Source: Synechococcus sp. PNGco_S_binSS4
Lineage (GTDB): Bacteria; Cyanobacteriota; Cyanobacteriia; PCC-6307; Cyanobiaceae
Reading direction: 5' to 3'
DNA: 33,538 nt
Assembly: GCA_007571085.1 (NCBI GenBank)
Contig: RKSC01000024.1
Coordinates: 1-33,538 of the forward strand
The notes beneath the pieces were generated by a model, which searched no databases, was not told where the DNA came from, and saw only the letters and a program-made list of their open reading frames with translations. The translations under genes were made by a program, and so were the position numbers. Below are positions 6,789 to 33,538 of the stretch, in pieces (position 1 is the stretch's first letter; each line of letters starts with the position of its first letter).

Positions 6789-8321
6789 CTAATAAGGGGG
6801 CCCAAGGCTCTGGCGTTCATCATTGCTGCGGCTGGTGGGAATGCCGCTGATGATCCGCTCAAAGTCCTGAAAAGAGTCTTTGATCTCAGCCCCTGCACCG
6901 CTGATGAGAAACTCACGAATGCCTTTGTCATGCCAGGAGCCTCGCATCTTGAACACATTGATGGCCCGTGACATCTCACCACGAATCTCCACGTATTGCA
7001 GCAGCAAGATGGAGTCGGTGATCGTAGAGATATGGGAGTCGGTAATGGAATGGCTGCCCATGAACTCCTCGGAGGTGTTGGTGAACAGTCCCGTGATTTC
7101 TTCCTGCTTCACGTAGCCGGTGACGCCAATAACAAACTGGCGAAAGGCATTTTGACTCACCCCCCTTGCCAAGGCCGAGAGGGAGTCAATGGCCATACGG
7201 GCTGGTTTAAATTGCTCAATGGCTGTCTTAATGATCTGGAGGTGATCTTCCAACCCGGTGGATTCGGGATAGGCGCAGATAATTTTGATCATCCCATCCT
7301 GCTCCATCTGTTCAAAGTCCATGCCCCAGCTGGTGGCATTGCGCATGAGCTGAGAACGGGACTCCTCATAGGCAAAGAGAATGGCCCGCTCATTCATCCG
7401 GTAAGCATCTTCAAGAAACTTGCTCACCAGCAGGGTTTTACCCGTCCCCGTTGGCCCAGTGGCCAAGATGATGGAGTCCTTGAAAAAGCCACCACCGCAC
7501 ATCTCATCTAGGCGAGGGATACCTGAGCTGATGCGTGTATTGGAGGAGCGGGAGGTGAGTCGCATGGCCCCCAAAGCAAAGATATTGATTCCATCCACCC
7601 CGATGGTGAAGGGGAACTCCCCTTTCATGTGGCTGGTGCCCCGCAGTTTGAGAATCTCGCAGGTGCGCCGCCGCCGCTCCCCTTCTAACACATTGCGGAG
7701 GATGACCACATTGTCTGAGACAAACTCCTCCACCCCATAGCGGGCAATGGGGCCATATTCATCAATGCGCTCTGTGGTCATCACAGTGGTGACACCAATT
7801 TCCTTCAGCCGGGCGATCATGCGGAACACCTCCAAGCGCACCACGGAGACAGCGTCGTACTGCTGAAACACTGCTGTCACTGAATCAATGGCCACCCGCT
7901 TGGCTTTGTACTTACGGATGGCATAGTTGATGCGCTCAATCAGACCGGAGAGGTCAAAGCTGCCCGCCATGTCTTGGCCCTCCGGGTCGGGAGAGGCATC
8001 CAAAACAAAGAGCTTGTCTTGCTGCACCAGATCCTGGAGCGACCAGCCAAAGCTGCTGGCATTGCGCAGGATGTCAATGGGAGACTCCTCAAAGGTGACA
8101 AAGATTCCCGGCTCGTCAAACTGCTTAATGCCGTTGTAGAGAAAGTGGAGGGAAAACACGGTTTTACCTGTGCCTGAGGTGCCGCTGATGAGGGTGGCGC
8201 GACCTGTGGGCAGTCCTCCGTGGCAGATATCATCAAAACCCTCGATACCGGTGGGTAGCTTTTGAACGTGGCCGAATCCTTGGTTACGGGGATCCGGTGA
8301 ATGGAAACGTTGACTGTTCAT
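6789..8321 (-). CDS. kaiC: Circadian clock ATPase/kinase KaiC (altered C-terminal tail)
   Basis: Duplicated RecA-like domains with Walker A GTSGTGKT and GPTGTGKT, FEES/YEES catalytic Glu pairs, phosphosite context DSHISTITDS, ends FERIISGIPTSRSNDERQSLGPPY. Start set at the internal MNSQRF. Confidence 0.96.
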   Translation of the reverse strand: MNSQRFHSPDPRNQGFGHVQKLPTGIEGFDDICHGGLPTGRATLISGTSGTGKTVFSLHFLYNGIKQFDEPGIFVTFEESPIDILRNASSFGWSLQDLVQQDKLFVLDASPDPEGQDMAGSFDLSGLIERINYAIRKYKAKRVAIDSVTAVFQQYDAVSVVRLEVFRMIARLKEIGVTTVMTTERIDEYGPIARYGVEEFVSDNVVILRNVLEGERRRRTCEILKLRGTSHMKGEFPFTIGVDGINIFALGAMRLTSRSSNTRISSGIPRLDEMCGGGFFKDSIILATGPTGTGKTLLVSKFLEDAYRMNERAILFAYEESRSQLMRNATSWGMDFEQMEQDGMIKIICAYPESTGLEDHLQIIKTAIEQFKPARMAIDSLSALARGVSQNAFRQFVIGVTGYVKQEEITGLFTNTSEEFMGSHSITDSHISTITDSILLLQYVEIRGEMSRAINVFKMRGSWHDKGIREFLISGAGAEIKDSFQDFERIISGIPTSRSNDERQSLGPPY

Positions 8322-8325
8322 GGCC

Positions 8326-8655
8326 TCAGATTGCCTCCTCTGAGCCAAGATGCAAGGTGTCATCAGCCAGCTCCTCAAAAAGCAGGTCCAGGCCGACTAG
8401 AACACGCTGGCGGTCAGAGAGATCACCAATTATGCGTCGCACCGGTGGGGGCAAAATCTTTGCCAAGGTGGGGGTGGCCAGGATTTTATCTTCTTCAGCA
8501 AGCTGGGGATTTTTCAGCACATCGATCACCTTGAGGGCATAGACACCTTTGAACTCTGTCTCCAGGATGTCCTGTAGGGTTTTGAGTGCACGCATAGAGT
8601 TGGGTGTGTTGCCCGCCACATAGAGCTTGAGAATGTAGGTCTTACGAGAGCTCAT
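8326..8655 (-). CDS. kaiB: Circadian clock protein KaiB
   Basis: 109-aa [31 protein letters not shown]...[33 protein letters not shown], directly upstream of kaiC. Confidence 0.96.
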
Positions 8656-28945: not shown

Positions 28946-29353
28946 GTGCCTCAGCCTGGTCACTCAATGGACAACAGCTGGCCCACAAAACCGCAACAAC
29001 CCATGGTGTCAATCCCTTCTTTCCCCCATGCAGATTCCGGTAATGGCAAGGAACCTAAGGATCCTGATATTGAGGAGAGGCGCAGGGCTGCTGAGGCATT
29101 GGGGAAAGCTTTTCAAGCTGTCCTAGAGCGAGAAGAGCAGGCCCTACGGGAGCAGTTTTCTGAAGGATTTAATCCCATGGAGGCCCAGGCCAGGGCATTG
29201 CTCTGGCTCCTAGCCCTCCAGGACTTTCACATGAAAGCGGTGAAAGAGGCCATTGCCAGCAACAAAGCAGAAATGCTCAGTGGCTGGGCAGAGGACTTGG
29301 GCAAGCTCTCTGCCACTATCACCATCCTGGAGACGATCCAGCCAGTTCTATAG
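28946..29353 (+). CDS. Hypothetical protein
   Basis: 135-aa ORF with helical acidic/basic body (DPDIEERRRAAEALGKAFQAVLEREEQALREQFSEGF...); start uncertain. Confidence 0.6.
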   Translation: MPQPGHSMDNSWPTKPQQPMVSIPSFPHADSGNGKEPKDPDIEERRRAAEALGKAFQAVLEREEQALREQFSEGFNPMEAQARALLWLLALQDFHMKAVKEAIASNKAEMLSGWAEDLGKLSATITILETIQPVL

Positions 29354-29378
29354 CTGGATAATCTGTAGCTGGAAAAAC

Positions 29379-29618
29379 CTATCCGATGCCCAGCAAGGCA
29401 TGGGTTAAGGCATCACCGCCAAAGAGCAGCTCGGTGGCCAGTAAGGCAACGAAGCCCACCATGGCCATGCGACCATTCAGCTTTTCAGCACGCTCATGGA
29501 AGCCCCAACCTTGGTCAGCATCCACCACTAACATGCGGGGTTCACGGGCAAAGGCATTGAGACGCCCACCATCTTCAGTGGTGATGGTGGCTCCCCGGAT
29601 AATGGTGGGGGAGGACAT
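29379..29618 (-). CDS. High light-inducible protein (Hli/Scp, single chlorophyll-binding-like helix)
   Basis: [41 protein letters not shown], with the ExxNGRxAMxGF signature. Confidence 0.93.
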
Positions 29619-30559
29619 GGTTAGATCAGCTTGGCTCACGGGCTCCAGTGCAACAGACTAAACCGTAACAGATTGTTAAGGAGACTGTGGCTGATGGGGT
29701 GGTGGTGACCCAACCTCGGTGCAATTTCATTCATGGCCATGGGCTCCTGGACCCCAAGAACCCCTGGTTCTCCCCTTAAGGGCTTTTGGTGCAACCTGGC
29801 AAGGGAATAGATGGCTTCAGGATTCTCCCCCAGCTTCTGGATAAAAGCCTCCGGTTTCAACTGCCACCCCATACCCCTAGGCATCCCCATGGGGGCAAAC
29901 ATAGTCTCTGTTGACCCAATAAGATTGACCTGGGTTGGGGTGATTCAGGCTGGGCTGGCAGAGGAGGCACTGACTGCACTTGACTGGCTGCCCCAACCCA
30001 TGGTGAGTGGGCTCCTCCGGCTGGGGCTCTGTTCTCTCCATCCGTGCAGCATTGGCAGCTGCCACACCAGCTCCCTGGGCCCCAGCCCGCCGTTGACGAT
30101 GAACCTCTAAGCGCTCCCTAGTGATCCGGCGCCGCTCACCATCACCTCCACTGCCCCACCACCATCCGTCAGGATGGTTTGACGAGCCATCCGCCCTATG
30201 ACAATTGCCTCCCCAGGTGATCGCCCAGCTCATATGAATCAGCCATCGAGGGGCCGCTTGGTCCTTGCCACAACCGTGGTAGGGACAATGACCCATCTAC
30301 ATACCTGACTTGATCCCGCTGGTGGACGGCGGGCCGCCCCTGCACTTGCTGGTGGAAGGGAAGAGCTGCAATGGAGAGGATGTCAACAAAGGCAAGAGAA
30401 CCACCATGGAGACTCACTGGCAGCCAGCGGTGAGTGGCCTCAGCACATTTGGGTACTGGGTCTTTTTAGGGCTTGTTGATGTGTGGATTATCTTAATACT
30501 GATCCTCTGCCATGGCCCATTGGCTGTGGTTAGAGTGGTTCCATGATGGGAGGTGCAGC

Positions 30560-31723
30560 ATGTCAAAACAACTGGACAATATGACTTTTAAGGTTGAAAG
30601 CCTGGGAGTTGTTAAGGAAGGAAAATTCACTCAGAAGCCCTTAACAATTTTCTGCGGTCCAAATAATAGTGGTAAGACCTGGTTCATGTATTCTCTATAT
30701 TACACCTATCGGCTGCTTGCTCGTCCCAAGAAAGATCCAGGCAACTTAGACGAAACTAAACATCAGTGCAGTTTAGAATCTTTGAAAAGTCATATTAATG
30801 AGAATCTGGCAAGTATTTTCAACACTAGCAAGGAACTATTGGGAAGCGCTCGCTTTATACCAAGCTTTGGGGAAGAAGAACTACAGGAGCGGATGGATAA
30901 TCTCAGCAATCCCTTCCTAATTCCTGCCGAACGCTCTGGCTTACATTTATTCTATCGTGAGCTAAGTACCCGTCGCACCGCTCTCTTGCATCATGCCTCG
31001 AAGGAAAGTATTGACCTGCATGAACTGCTGCAAGACGTTATTTCTTCCCCCTATGCCATACCAATTTCTGACTATATAACTTGGCTAAACCAGTTAGCCG
31101 AAAACCAGCGTGGTGGTTGCAGCTGCTTCCATAAGCATGGGGAATATCTGAAGCGGAACTTAGTACGTGGCAACTACAAGGTAGATAGGAGTACTAGGGC
31201 CATCACCTTCAAGCCTTACCAACTTAAGCGTGATGGCAATAGCACCAAAAGCCTGGGCCTGCACATGACATCCAGTACTGTGAAAAGCCTGTTTGGGCTC
31301 TGGTTCTATCTGGAATACCAGGCACAAACCGGTGACCTGCTGATGATTGATGAACCAGAACTCAACCTTCATCCAGAAAACCAGCGTAGGATCGCACGGT
31401 TTCTAGCAAAGCTCGTCAATGCCGGTTTGAACATTGTTATCAGTACCCATAGCGACTATATTATTCGGGAGCTGAACTCATTAATTATGCTGAGTAACAA
31501 AGGTGCCGGTGATTTGCGTAAGAAATACAAGTATGAAGATGATGAAGTGTTGGATTCCAACAAAGTGGGTGCTTACTTGTTTGATGATCGAACTATTACA
31601 CCATTTGAGATTTTACCCAGTGACGGCATTGTTGCCAGCACCTTCGATGAGGTAATCCGTGGTCTGAATGAAGTTAATGATGATATCTATTATGGATTAC
31701 AGGAGATGGAAAATGAGCAGTAA
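30560..31723 (+). CDS. ABC/AAA-type ATP-binding protein (predicted ATPase, OLD/AAA_15-like)
   Basis: Walker A GPNNSGKT, signature-like region SSTVKSLFGLWF, Walker B GDLLMIDEPELNLHPENQRRIARFL, H-switch-like STHSDYIIREL. Start MSKQLDNM at 30560 preceded by ggaggt. Confidence 0.9.
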   Translation: MSKQLDNMTFKVESLGVVKEGKFTQKPLTIFCGPNNSGKTWFMYSLYYTYRLLARPKKDPGNLDETKHQCSLESLKSHINENLASIFNTSKELLGSARFIPSFGEEELQERMDNLSNPFLIPAERSGLHLFYRELSTRRTALLHHASKESIDLHELLQDVISSPYAIPISDYITWLNQLAENQRGGCSCFHKHGEYLKRNLVRGNYKVDRSTRAITFKPYQLKRDGNSTKSLGLHMTSSTVKSLFGLWFYLEYQAQTGDLLMIDEPELNLHPENQRRIARFLAKLVNAGLNIVISTHSDYIIRELNSLIMLSNKGAGDLRKKYKYEDDEVLDSNKVGAYLFDDRTITPFEILPSDGIVASTFDEVIRGLNEVNDDIYYGLQEMENEQ

Positions 31724-32285
31724 ATTTATCACTACGATGCAGCAGGCTATTGATGCCAGATATAAGCTGAAAAGATATGGCCGAGGCTGGATACTAAGCG
31801 ATAATGGGATGCAAACGAAAATCTGTGTTCCCAATAGGCATTCTATAGCATTTTCCCTAGATTCCAAAGAGAAACCATTGGGCTTCCTTAGTGACAAACC
31901 ACCAGAGAACCTAGCTAAAATGTGCGATGCCATTCTCTTCTGTTTTTATCAAGGCAAGATTTATCTCTTTGTGCTTGAGATGAAGACTACCCATAAAAGT
32001 CACTGCACAAAGCAATTGACAAATGGTAAACTGTTCTGTCATTGGCTAATTAGTCTATTCAAAACATACAACTACTTGGAAGAGGAGCCAACAGCCATCT
32101 CTTTATTGCTATGGAGGCCCCGGTCAAATGCAGTAAGAAAAGGAACAACGACTCATTCCCACCCCGGAGACGGTATTGTGCCAGATGAAAACCTTGATCT
32201 GCGTGACCTGTTTGATCATAGCTTTCAGATAAGGAATCAAGAAACAGTTCAGATCATAAATCTGGTTAAACGGATCGTTAAATAG
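31713..32285 (+). CDS. Uncharacterised partner protein with PD-(D/E)xK-like motif
   Basis: 190-aa ORF starting at ATG 31713, overlapping the ATPase stop by 11 nt and preceded by aggag; contains CDAILFCFYQGKIYLFVLEMKTTHKSHCTKQLTNGKLFCHWL (D-x14-ExK followed by Q). Confidence 0.82.
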   Translation: MSSKFITTMQQAIDARYKLKRYGRGWILSDNGMQTKICVPNRHSIAFSLDSKEKPLGFLSDKPPENLAKMCDAILFCFYQGKIYLFVLEMKTTHKSHCTKQLTNGKLFCHWLISLFKTYNYLEEEPTAISLLLWRPRSNAVRKGTTTHSHPGDGIVPDENLDLRDLFDHSFQIRNQETVQIINLVKRIVK

Positions 32286-32330
32286 ATCCAGTAGCCCTAA
32301 GATCATTCATAGGATAACAATCCAGTAGCC
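32286..32330. repeat. Short direct repeat downstream of the cassette
   Basis: atccagtagcc at 32286-32296 and 32320-32330 (34-nt spacing). Confidence 0.8.
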
Positions 32331-32347
32331 TAGGAGCACCTGCTGCT

Positions 32348-32391
32348 GTCCGGGTTCACAGTTTGCCTAGGAGAGCAAAACTAAGCCGGAC
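32348..32391. other. Imperfect hairpin downstream of the ATPase/nuclease-like cassette
   Basis: gtccgg gttcac agtttgc ctaggaga gcaaaact aag ccggac: outer 6-bp stem, inner 7-bp stem with one bulge. Confidence 0.5.
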
Positions 32392-32538
32392 GCTTCCCAG
32401 CTCCACCACCTGGCAAAAACCTGGTCAGCAGCCTGCCCTTGAGGTGCTTCCCTTGGGGTTCTCCTCACCCATCACCGCCTAGGCACCTTAAAATCTGCCA
32501 ACCCATGGAATAATCCAGGGGTCATTAGCATAATTATC

Positions 32539-32949
32539 ATGCTTTACAGAGAGGTGGAACTAGATGTGCTCCAATCCATGGCCATGCGGGTGATCAATGC
32601 CAGGGCACAGTGGCTAGACAAGCCAGGCTACAGGCAGGGCAACTACCACCAGCGGGGAGAGGGAGAGGAAAGGCAATGTTTCCAGATTTATCAGGGGCAG
32701 AATCTGAACAGCGAGCAGGACTTCTCATATGGTATTGTCTATTTGCCTAACCAATATAAAAAACCGACCCTTGCCCGTTACAATGGATCAGGCCATGGGC
32801 ATGGTGACATCCGCCACTGCTCTCACATTCACTGAGCCACGGAACGTGCCATTGAAACAGACAAGAAACCCGAATGTGAGGCAAAAGCAACAGATCGGCT
32901 TCAGTTTGTAGAAGTGCCCTCCCCTGTCTGCCGGAAAACTTTAAGGTAG
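32539..32949 (+). pseudogene. Hypothetical protein gene interrupted by an in-frame TGA
   Basis: MLYREVELDVLQSMAMRVINARAQW...LPNQYKKPTLARYNGSGHGHGDIRHCSHIH-[TGA 32833-32835]-ATERAIETDKKPECEAKATDRLQFVE... continues in the same frame to TAG 32947-32949; post-stop sequence looks like genuine coding continuation. Confidence 0.6.
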
Positions 32950-33237
32950 GAGCTTTAACGTGGGTGGATTAAATAGATGAATTAATGATGGCCAACTGCC
33001 TTTGTTTTCATGGTCTGTGTACAGGTGCTTGATTAGCTATAGTGATCCATTCCTGCAAGGAGCTGTGGGTGATCCTAGTGAGGGAATGCTAAACCCCTTC
33101 TCCAGTGGGGCAAAGCCCAAGTTTGATGCAATAGTGATACATAGTTTACAGGCTCATTGCCTATCCGGTGCGCAAGACTGTAGCCTGCAAGATCCTAACT
33201 TGTGTATATACCTGGAAAAACACCCAAACCTACTCTG

Positions 33238-33538
33238 ATGGCCCACAACACAGATGCTCTAGGCAAGCTCTTGTACCACCACCTTTGTGAGGATGTGGGC
33301 GTTGATGTGGGTCCTGATGGTGTCCTCATGCTGGGCCCCTATTTCCGGTTCCCTGCCGGAGATTCCTACCCATGCCATATCTATAATGGAACCCGGCGAC
33401 TGCTCCTGGAGCACATCATCAGTGAAACGGATTTGCATTGGGATGGGGTGTTCTGGTTCCACATTACACCTGAGGGCCTGCCAGAAGTGCTTTGGCACAA
33501 TTTACGTTCTAGTCCATGGTTGTTTTTGAAGATCAATC
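33238..33538 (+). CDS. Hypothetical protein, 3'-truncated by window end
   Basis: Open frame from ATG 33238 to the window edge: MAHNTDALGKLLYHHLCEDVGVDVGPDGVLMLGPYFRFPAGDSYPCHIYNGTRRLLLEHIISETDLHWDGVFWFHITPEGLPEVLWHNLRSSPWLFLKIN. Absent from the ORF track because no stop is reached. Confidence 0.6.
   Translation, partial: MAHNTDALGKLLYHHLCEDVGVDVGPDGVLMLGPYFRFPAGDSYPCHIYNGTRRLLLEHIISETDLHWDGVFWFHITPEGLPEVLWHNLRSSPWLFLKIN

Follow-up and report, generated by a model that had tools for sequence, protein, structure and literature searches.

A 33,538-nt contig of Synechococcus sp. PNGco_S_binSS4 (RKSC01000024.1, positions 1 to 33,538; assembly GCA_007571085.1, 1.68 Mb in 169 contigs), hereafter the window, carries two overlapping plus-strand genes that very probably represent a named phage-defence pair of the PD-T4-4/WonAB type, whose activity in this host is predicted. 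Gene A (30560..31723, +) encodes an ABC/OLD-type AAA ATPase of 387 amino acids, assigned to the PD-T4-4_A family, in a compact form, by PADLOC, Pfam, motifs, AlphaFold and length comparison. Gene B (31713..32285, +) encodes a predicted PD-(D/E)xK-type nuclease effector of 190 amino acids, assigned to the PD-T4-4_B family by PADLOC, conserved residues, AlphaFold and weak Foldseek matches. By direct reading, the genes share 11 nt, ATGAGCAGTAA (31713..31723, +), which suggests translational coupling; in relatives, overlaps or gaps of a few nucleotides between A and B are the rule. Gene A starts with an ATG at 30560, its frame remaining open further upstream to an ATG at 30512, and is preceded by a Shine-Dalgarno-like GGGAGGTG (30548..30555, +), while gene B starts with an ATG at 31713 and is served by a Shine-Dalgarno-like AGGAG lying within gene A (31701..31705, +). 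Both sites, likewise read directly, stand at Shine-Dalgarno distance from their starts. An initial annotation of this DNA had described the overlapping pair, its 11-nt overlap, the ribosome-binding sites and the motifs quoted below, and all were located where it had put them. Its placement of the pair in an AT-rich island agrees with a guanine-plus-cytosine (GC) content of 43% in gene A and 41% in gene B, against 57% over the first 30 kb of the window. Scans for promoter and terminator consensus sequences gave results no better than those from shuffled sequence.

Protein A is recognised by PADLOC as PD-T4-4_A with an E value of 1.6e-100, the best stretch covering positions 135-459 of the 460-position profile, with PDC-M47A as the second-ranked model. 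Pfam assigns it AAA-type domains only, namely AAA_15 and AAA_21, and PHROGs places it in family 13167, listed as of unknown function. The Walker A motif GPNNSGKT (33-40), the Walker B motif LLMIDEPELNLHP and the H-switch STHSD are all present and largely invariant among 68 aligned ATPases, in which K39, D264-E265 and H297 do not vary. Further conserved positions include an AER motif (E124, R125) and S238-S239, and the protein ends 90 residues past the H-switch. The AlphaFold model of A has a predicted local distance difference test (pLDDT) score of 91, and its nearest solved folds are PtuA proteins of Septu and retrons.

Protein B has no Pfam match, and PHROGs places it in family 14491, function unknown. 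PADLOC identifies it as PD-T4-4_B (E 6.7e-10, 37 bits, over residues 1-156 of 190); two further PD-T4-4_B models match it weakly, and it matches no models of other names. The sequence CDAILF...IYLFVLEMK...QL is present, and conservation in an alignment of 75 B proteins is highest at D72, E89, K91 and Q101. K91 occurs in all of 82 B sequences of full length, D72 in 99% of them, Q101 in 96% and E89 in 94%, with D in its place otherwise. Conversion of the protein positions to window coordinates puts the predicted active-site codons at 31926..32015 (+), with D72 at 31926-31928, E89 at 31977-31979, K91 at 31983-31985 and Q101 at 32013-32015. The AlphaFold model (pLDDT 91.5, predicted template modelling score 0.88) presents a strand at 73-79, a strand at 82-91 ending in E89-x-K91, a helix at 98-118 bearing Q101 and a strand at 127-134, an order that corresponds to the PD-(D/E)xK core and predicts a restriction-endonuclease-like core. 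The conserved residues and this predicted core bear out the suggestion of a nuclease core in B. Although low-scoring, the Foldseek list is rich in restriction-type folds, including McrBC, the BspD6I nickase, BamHI, FokI, Cas4 and RecU, and such scores are only suggestive. Compared with solved structures, the B family profile retrieved only Hjc, a Holliday junction resolvase, over the E-x-K region with an E value of 0.84, and phmmer returned no match for B; a Foldseek search against viral models produced nothing significant.

Taken together, PADLOC names A and B as PD-T4-4, an already named system; what the window holds is therefore not new but of a known kind, found in a host that is unusual for it. 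PD-T4-4 belongs to the 21 systems that Vassallo et al. 2022 recovered by selection from E. coli strains, where it resides on an element resembling an integrative and conjugative element and where its protection against phage was demonstrated (PMC9519451); a review table lists it with a PD-(D/E)xK domain and AAA domains (PMC10952713). The window shares with it the match of both genes to PADLOC models, the order of A followed by B, and an AAA_15 ATPase with a PD-(D/E)xK-type partner, but differs in an A about 72 residues shorter, a highly diverged B and a cyanobacterial host. WonAB, from the WASA-1 prophage of Vibrio cholerae, is similar to PD-T4-4 according to Adams et al. 2025, who place it in a broader family in which ABC ATPases serve as sensors and nucleases as effectors, and who report that the inserts of the ATPase vary (PMC12137116). 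By the description in that paper, its first gene likewise encodes an ABC ATPase of the OLD type and its second a small PD-(D/E)xK nuclease, and the window has the corresponding features, namely both Walker motifs and the H-switch in A and the PD-(D/E)xK motif and topology in B. According to PMC12137116, an in silico survey cited there presents an operon of an OLD-ABC ATPase and a novel restriction endonuclease, which has the same layout and predicted fold class. The initial annotation had thus correctly perceived the design, in which an ATPase of the OLD/ABC type is paired with a small PD-(D/E)xK partner, but its description of that design as undescribed fails because PADLOC models match both genes and because E. 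coli PD-T4-4 and WonAB are published; nor is the effector unrecognised, given its match to PD-T4-4_B. A match to a system that already has a name was among the outcomes that the annotation itself had listed as refuting it.

Several better-known systems with related ATPases were considered and rejected. Septu PtuAB and the retron PtuAB of Ec78 and Ec83 resemble the pair in their ATPase, since among solved structures PtuA matches A best, but PtuB is an HNH nuclease whereas B is of the PD-(D/E)xK type, and B has neither a Pfam match nor a PtuB match in PADLOC. Gabija GajAB, OLD and PARIS AriAB possess a related ATPase domain, which is combined there with a TOPRIM domain, a helicase or AriB; no such part was found in the window. 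Gabija and OLD were dismissed on the domain content and early end of A and the lack of an adjoining helicase, and PARIS on the restriction of B matches to PD-T4-4_B models, with none to AriB.

Relatives were collected by searching with A alone, giving 80 loci in many phyla, in which B was called with an iterated B profile, a few calls being of a B fragment only. B lies directly 3' of A in 68 of these 80 loci, or in 68 of 74 once six loci whose contig ends within about 0.5 kb (L051, L059, L062, L078, L080 and L081) are omitted. The expectation that the two genes would be conserved together in scattered phyla is borne out, and the pair is not a chance arrangement, because both proteins are conserved across phyla with their order kept. 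Closer to the host, the B model at E 0.001 yields 21 matches, some fragmentary, among 387 genomes of the phylum, while the B alignment matches a single one of 300 sampled genomes of the window's family, that of the window itself. A full A is absent from all nine other genomes of the genus, two of which contain partial ATPase matches of 29-33% identity. The PD-T4-4-type pair thus seems very rare in this picocyanobacterial family, and because it was found in one genome alone of the 300, its distribution fits horizontal acquisition from outside the family.

Some related loci are irregular. Gene A is split into two overlapping frames in L053 (5953-6815) and L055 (599-1811), through decay or assembly error, and gene B of L031 (7136-8844) is interrupted by a minus-strand DDE transposase gene (7435-8574). 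In L027 (6007-9235), a short A with a replaced C-terminal end is followed by a protein matching the PADLOC candidate PDC-M30A, B is absent, and the next gene resembles, by eye, phage Gp37/Gp68-type proteins; effector loss or swap is possible there.

Among relatives, the pair often keeps the company of defence and mobile genes. In L034 (67-7325) and L038 (2615-10792), it has a type III methyltransferase gene (mod) on one side and a ResIII gene on the other, with spacing of a few nucleotides or overlaps, and L040 and L042 likewise hold it between mod and res inside type III restriction-modification operons. The mod gene abuts A in about 10 loci; elsewhere, including L026, res lies 3' of B or 5' of A, and RloA/RloB genes occur near the pair in L029 and L030. 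A and B, the latter confirmed by profile, also form the main cargo of small plasmids (4.8 kb and 4.3 kb) from E. coli and Klebsiella and, again with B confirmed by profile, sit beside cI and a recombinase gene in a P2-like Vibrio phage. In the window, the pair has ordinary cyanobacterial genes for neighbours, namely those for NdhL, for a DUF3007 protein and for a product that weakly matches chlorophyll-binding proteins, along with stretches in which no gene is recognised, and the flanks of the cassette (29716-30560 and 32290-33538) contain only short open reading frames (ORFs) with no family matches. All nine sister genomes conserve part of the left neighbourhood (about 29086-29716), which encodes a high-light-inducible-type protein, and the right flank has partial DNA matches of 69-74% in three of them, at other places or contigs. 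Because these right-flank matches are few and on other contigs, no clean empty site could be shown in the nine sister genomes.

The form of A sets the window apart from most relatives. Between residue 40 and F119 it has 80 residues, against 152-171 in most relatives, which places the roughly 72 missing residues after Walker A and ahead of the AER motif. Seven proteins have 75-85 residues there: those of the window, Poribacteria (L026), Gammaproteobacteria (L027 and L028), Dadabacteria (L029), Latescibacterota (L031) and Thioalkalivibrio sp. HK1 (L033, whose start is cut by a contig end). These seven form one clade, with a Shimodaira-Hasegawa-like approximate likelihood ratio test (SH-aLRT) value of 98 in a large tree, and a bootstrap of 97 and SH-aLRT of 99 in a careful tree. 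Damage as the cause of the short A was accordingly rejected, the short form being common to a supported clade. A second, independent shortening, to 46-50 residues, is found in the Beggiatoa-type L074, L076 and L086. In L086, B is located about 1.4 kb away from A.

Several observations weigh against the assignment to PD-T4-4/WonAB. The score of B against the PADLOC model is only moderate at 37 bits, and B is only 18% identical to a cyanobacterial protein (L004) that matches this model almost fully. Foldseek of B against solved structures found nothing significant (best E 0.08), so the case for its nuclease fold is made by motif and topology together with weak matches. The residues missing from A could alter sensing. 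Proximity to other defence genes, which had been proposed as a check, is frequent in relatives, but no other defence gene lies next to the pair in the window.

By analogy with the E. coli and V. cholerae relatives, a defence role, activation of B by A and an effect on translation are likely. A would dimerise around ATP and hold B, sensing a consequence of phage infection, while B, a divergent PD-(D/E)xK nuclease, would be harmless until positioned or released through the ATPase cycle of A. Active B would then cleave nucleic acid and stop the infection, most likely by abortive infection, and its target may be transfer or ribosomal RNA, not DNA. WonAB causes abortive infection in which translation is halted by an ATPase-dependent nuclease while genomic DNA is left intact, its activity depending on the presence of both genes as well as on the ATPase residues and the lysine of the nuclease (PMC12137116). 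For the window pair, the translation-stopping route in particular has about an even chance of being correct. Alternatively, A might recognise phage DNA or its ends and load B to cut it, destroying the invading DNA directly without killing the cell. The restriction-endonuclease-type core of B, the position of the pair inside type III restriction operons in several genomes and the fold that A shares with PtuA-type ATPases, whose partners are nucleases, speak for such a route. It is nonetheless the less probable one, as the best studied relative, WonAB, spares genomic DNA and halts translation (PMC12137116), and no sequence feature of the pair fixes the substrate.

A role outside defence would be conceivable if B were a toxic nuclease and A its antitoxin, kept for their own persistence without a real anti-phage function, as small overlapping genes with a mobile distribution that form the main cargo of small plasmids might suggest. 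E. coli PD-T4-4 was isolated through phage selection (PMC9519451), however, and WonB is toxic only alongside a present and active WonA (PMC12137116), which rules out simple sequestration and makes this explanation very improbable. Hardly more credible is the view that the copy is in decay within the small genome of a symbiont and no longer works. Broken copies among relatives, with A split, B carrying a transposase gene or B missing, and flanks holding only short ORFs would accord with decay, but in the window both frames are open, and all catalytic residues and ribosome-binding sites are present. Moreover, the short region of A is not damage, because six other homologues share it.

With the pair read as a PD-T4-4/WonAB-type system, nothing looks new except the compact ATPase clade and its spread. 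From composition and kinship, the window's host is possibly a picocyanobacterium of sponges, of the same kind as Candidatus Synechococcus spongiarum. Thioalkalivibrio sp. HK1 was obtained from a sponge. It is treated among sulfur oxidisers in a sponge paper. The "jk18x" bin names of L027, L028 and L029 follow the naming of Ircinia sponge metagenome-assembled genomes in PMC9531527, and the fragmentary relative L053 has an MH-Pat name, as used in a Mycale hentscheli study. The sponge link is a lead only, drawn from the names of L027, L028, L029 and L053, from HK1 and from the possible host of the window. A tentative proposal, more doubtful than not, is that a compact PD-T4-4/WonAB branch, defined by the loss of roughly 72 residues from the insert region of the ATPase, has passed between bacterial phyla that inhabit marine sponges (Cyanobacteriota, Pseudomonadota, Poribacteria, Dadabacteria and Latescibacterota). 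Sensing of infection may reside in the insert, in which case the short proteins would respond to another, or a simpler, trigger, common to bacteria meeting the same sponge-associated phages.

Placing this supposed new system among known ones spares effort on rediscovery and extends the range of PD-T4-4/WonAB to the window's picocyanobacterial family. The broader family, with ABC ATPases as sensors and nucleases as effectors, is still little characterised, and the compact clade, which lacks most of the variable insert, provides a natural experiment that could show whether this insert sets phage specificity within the family.
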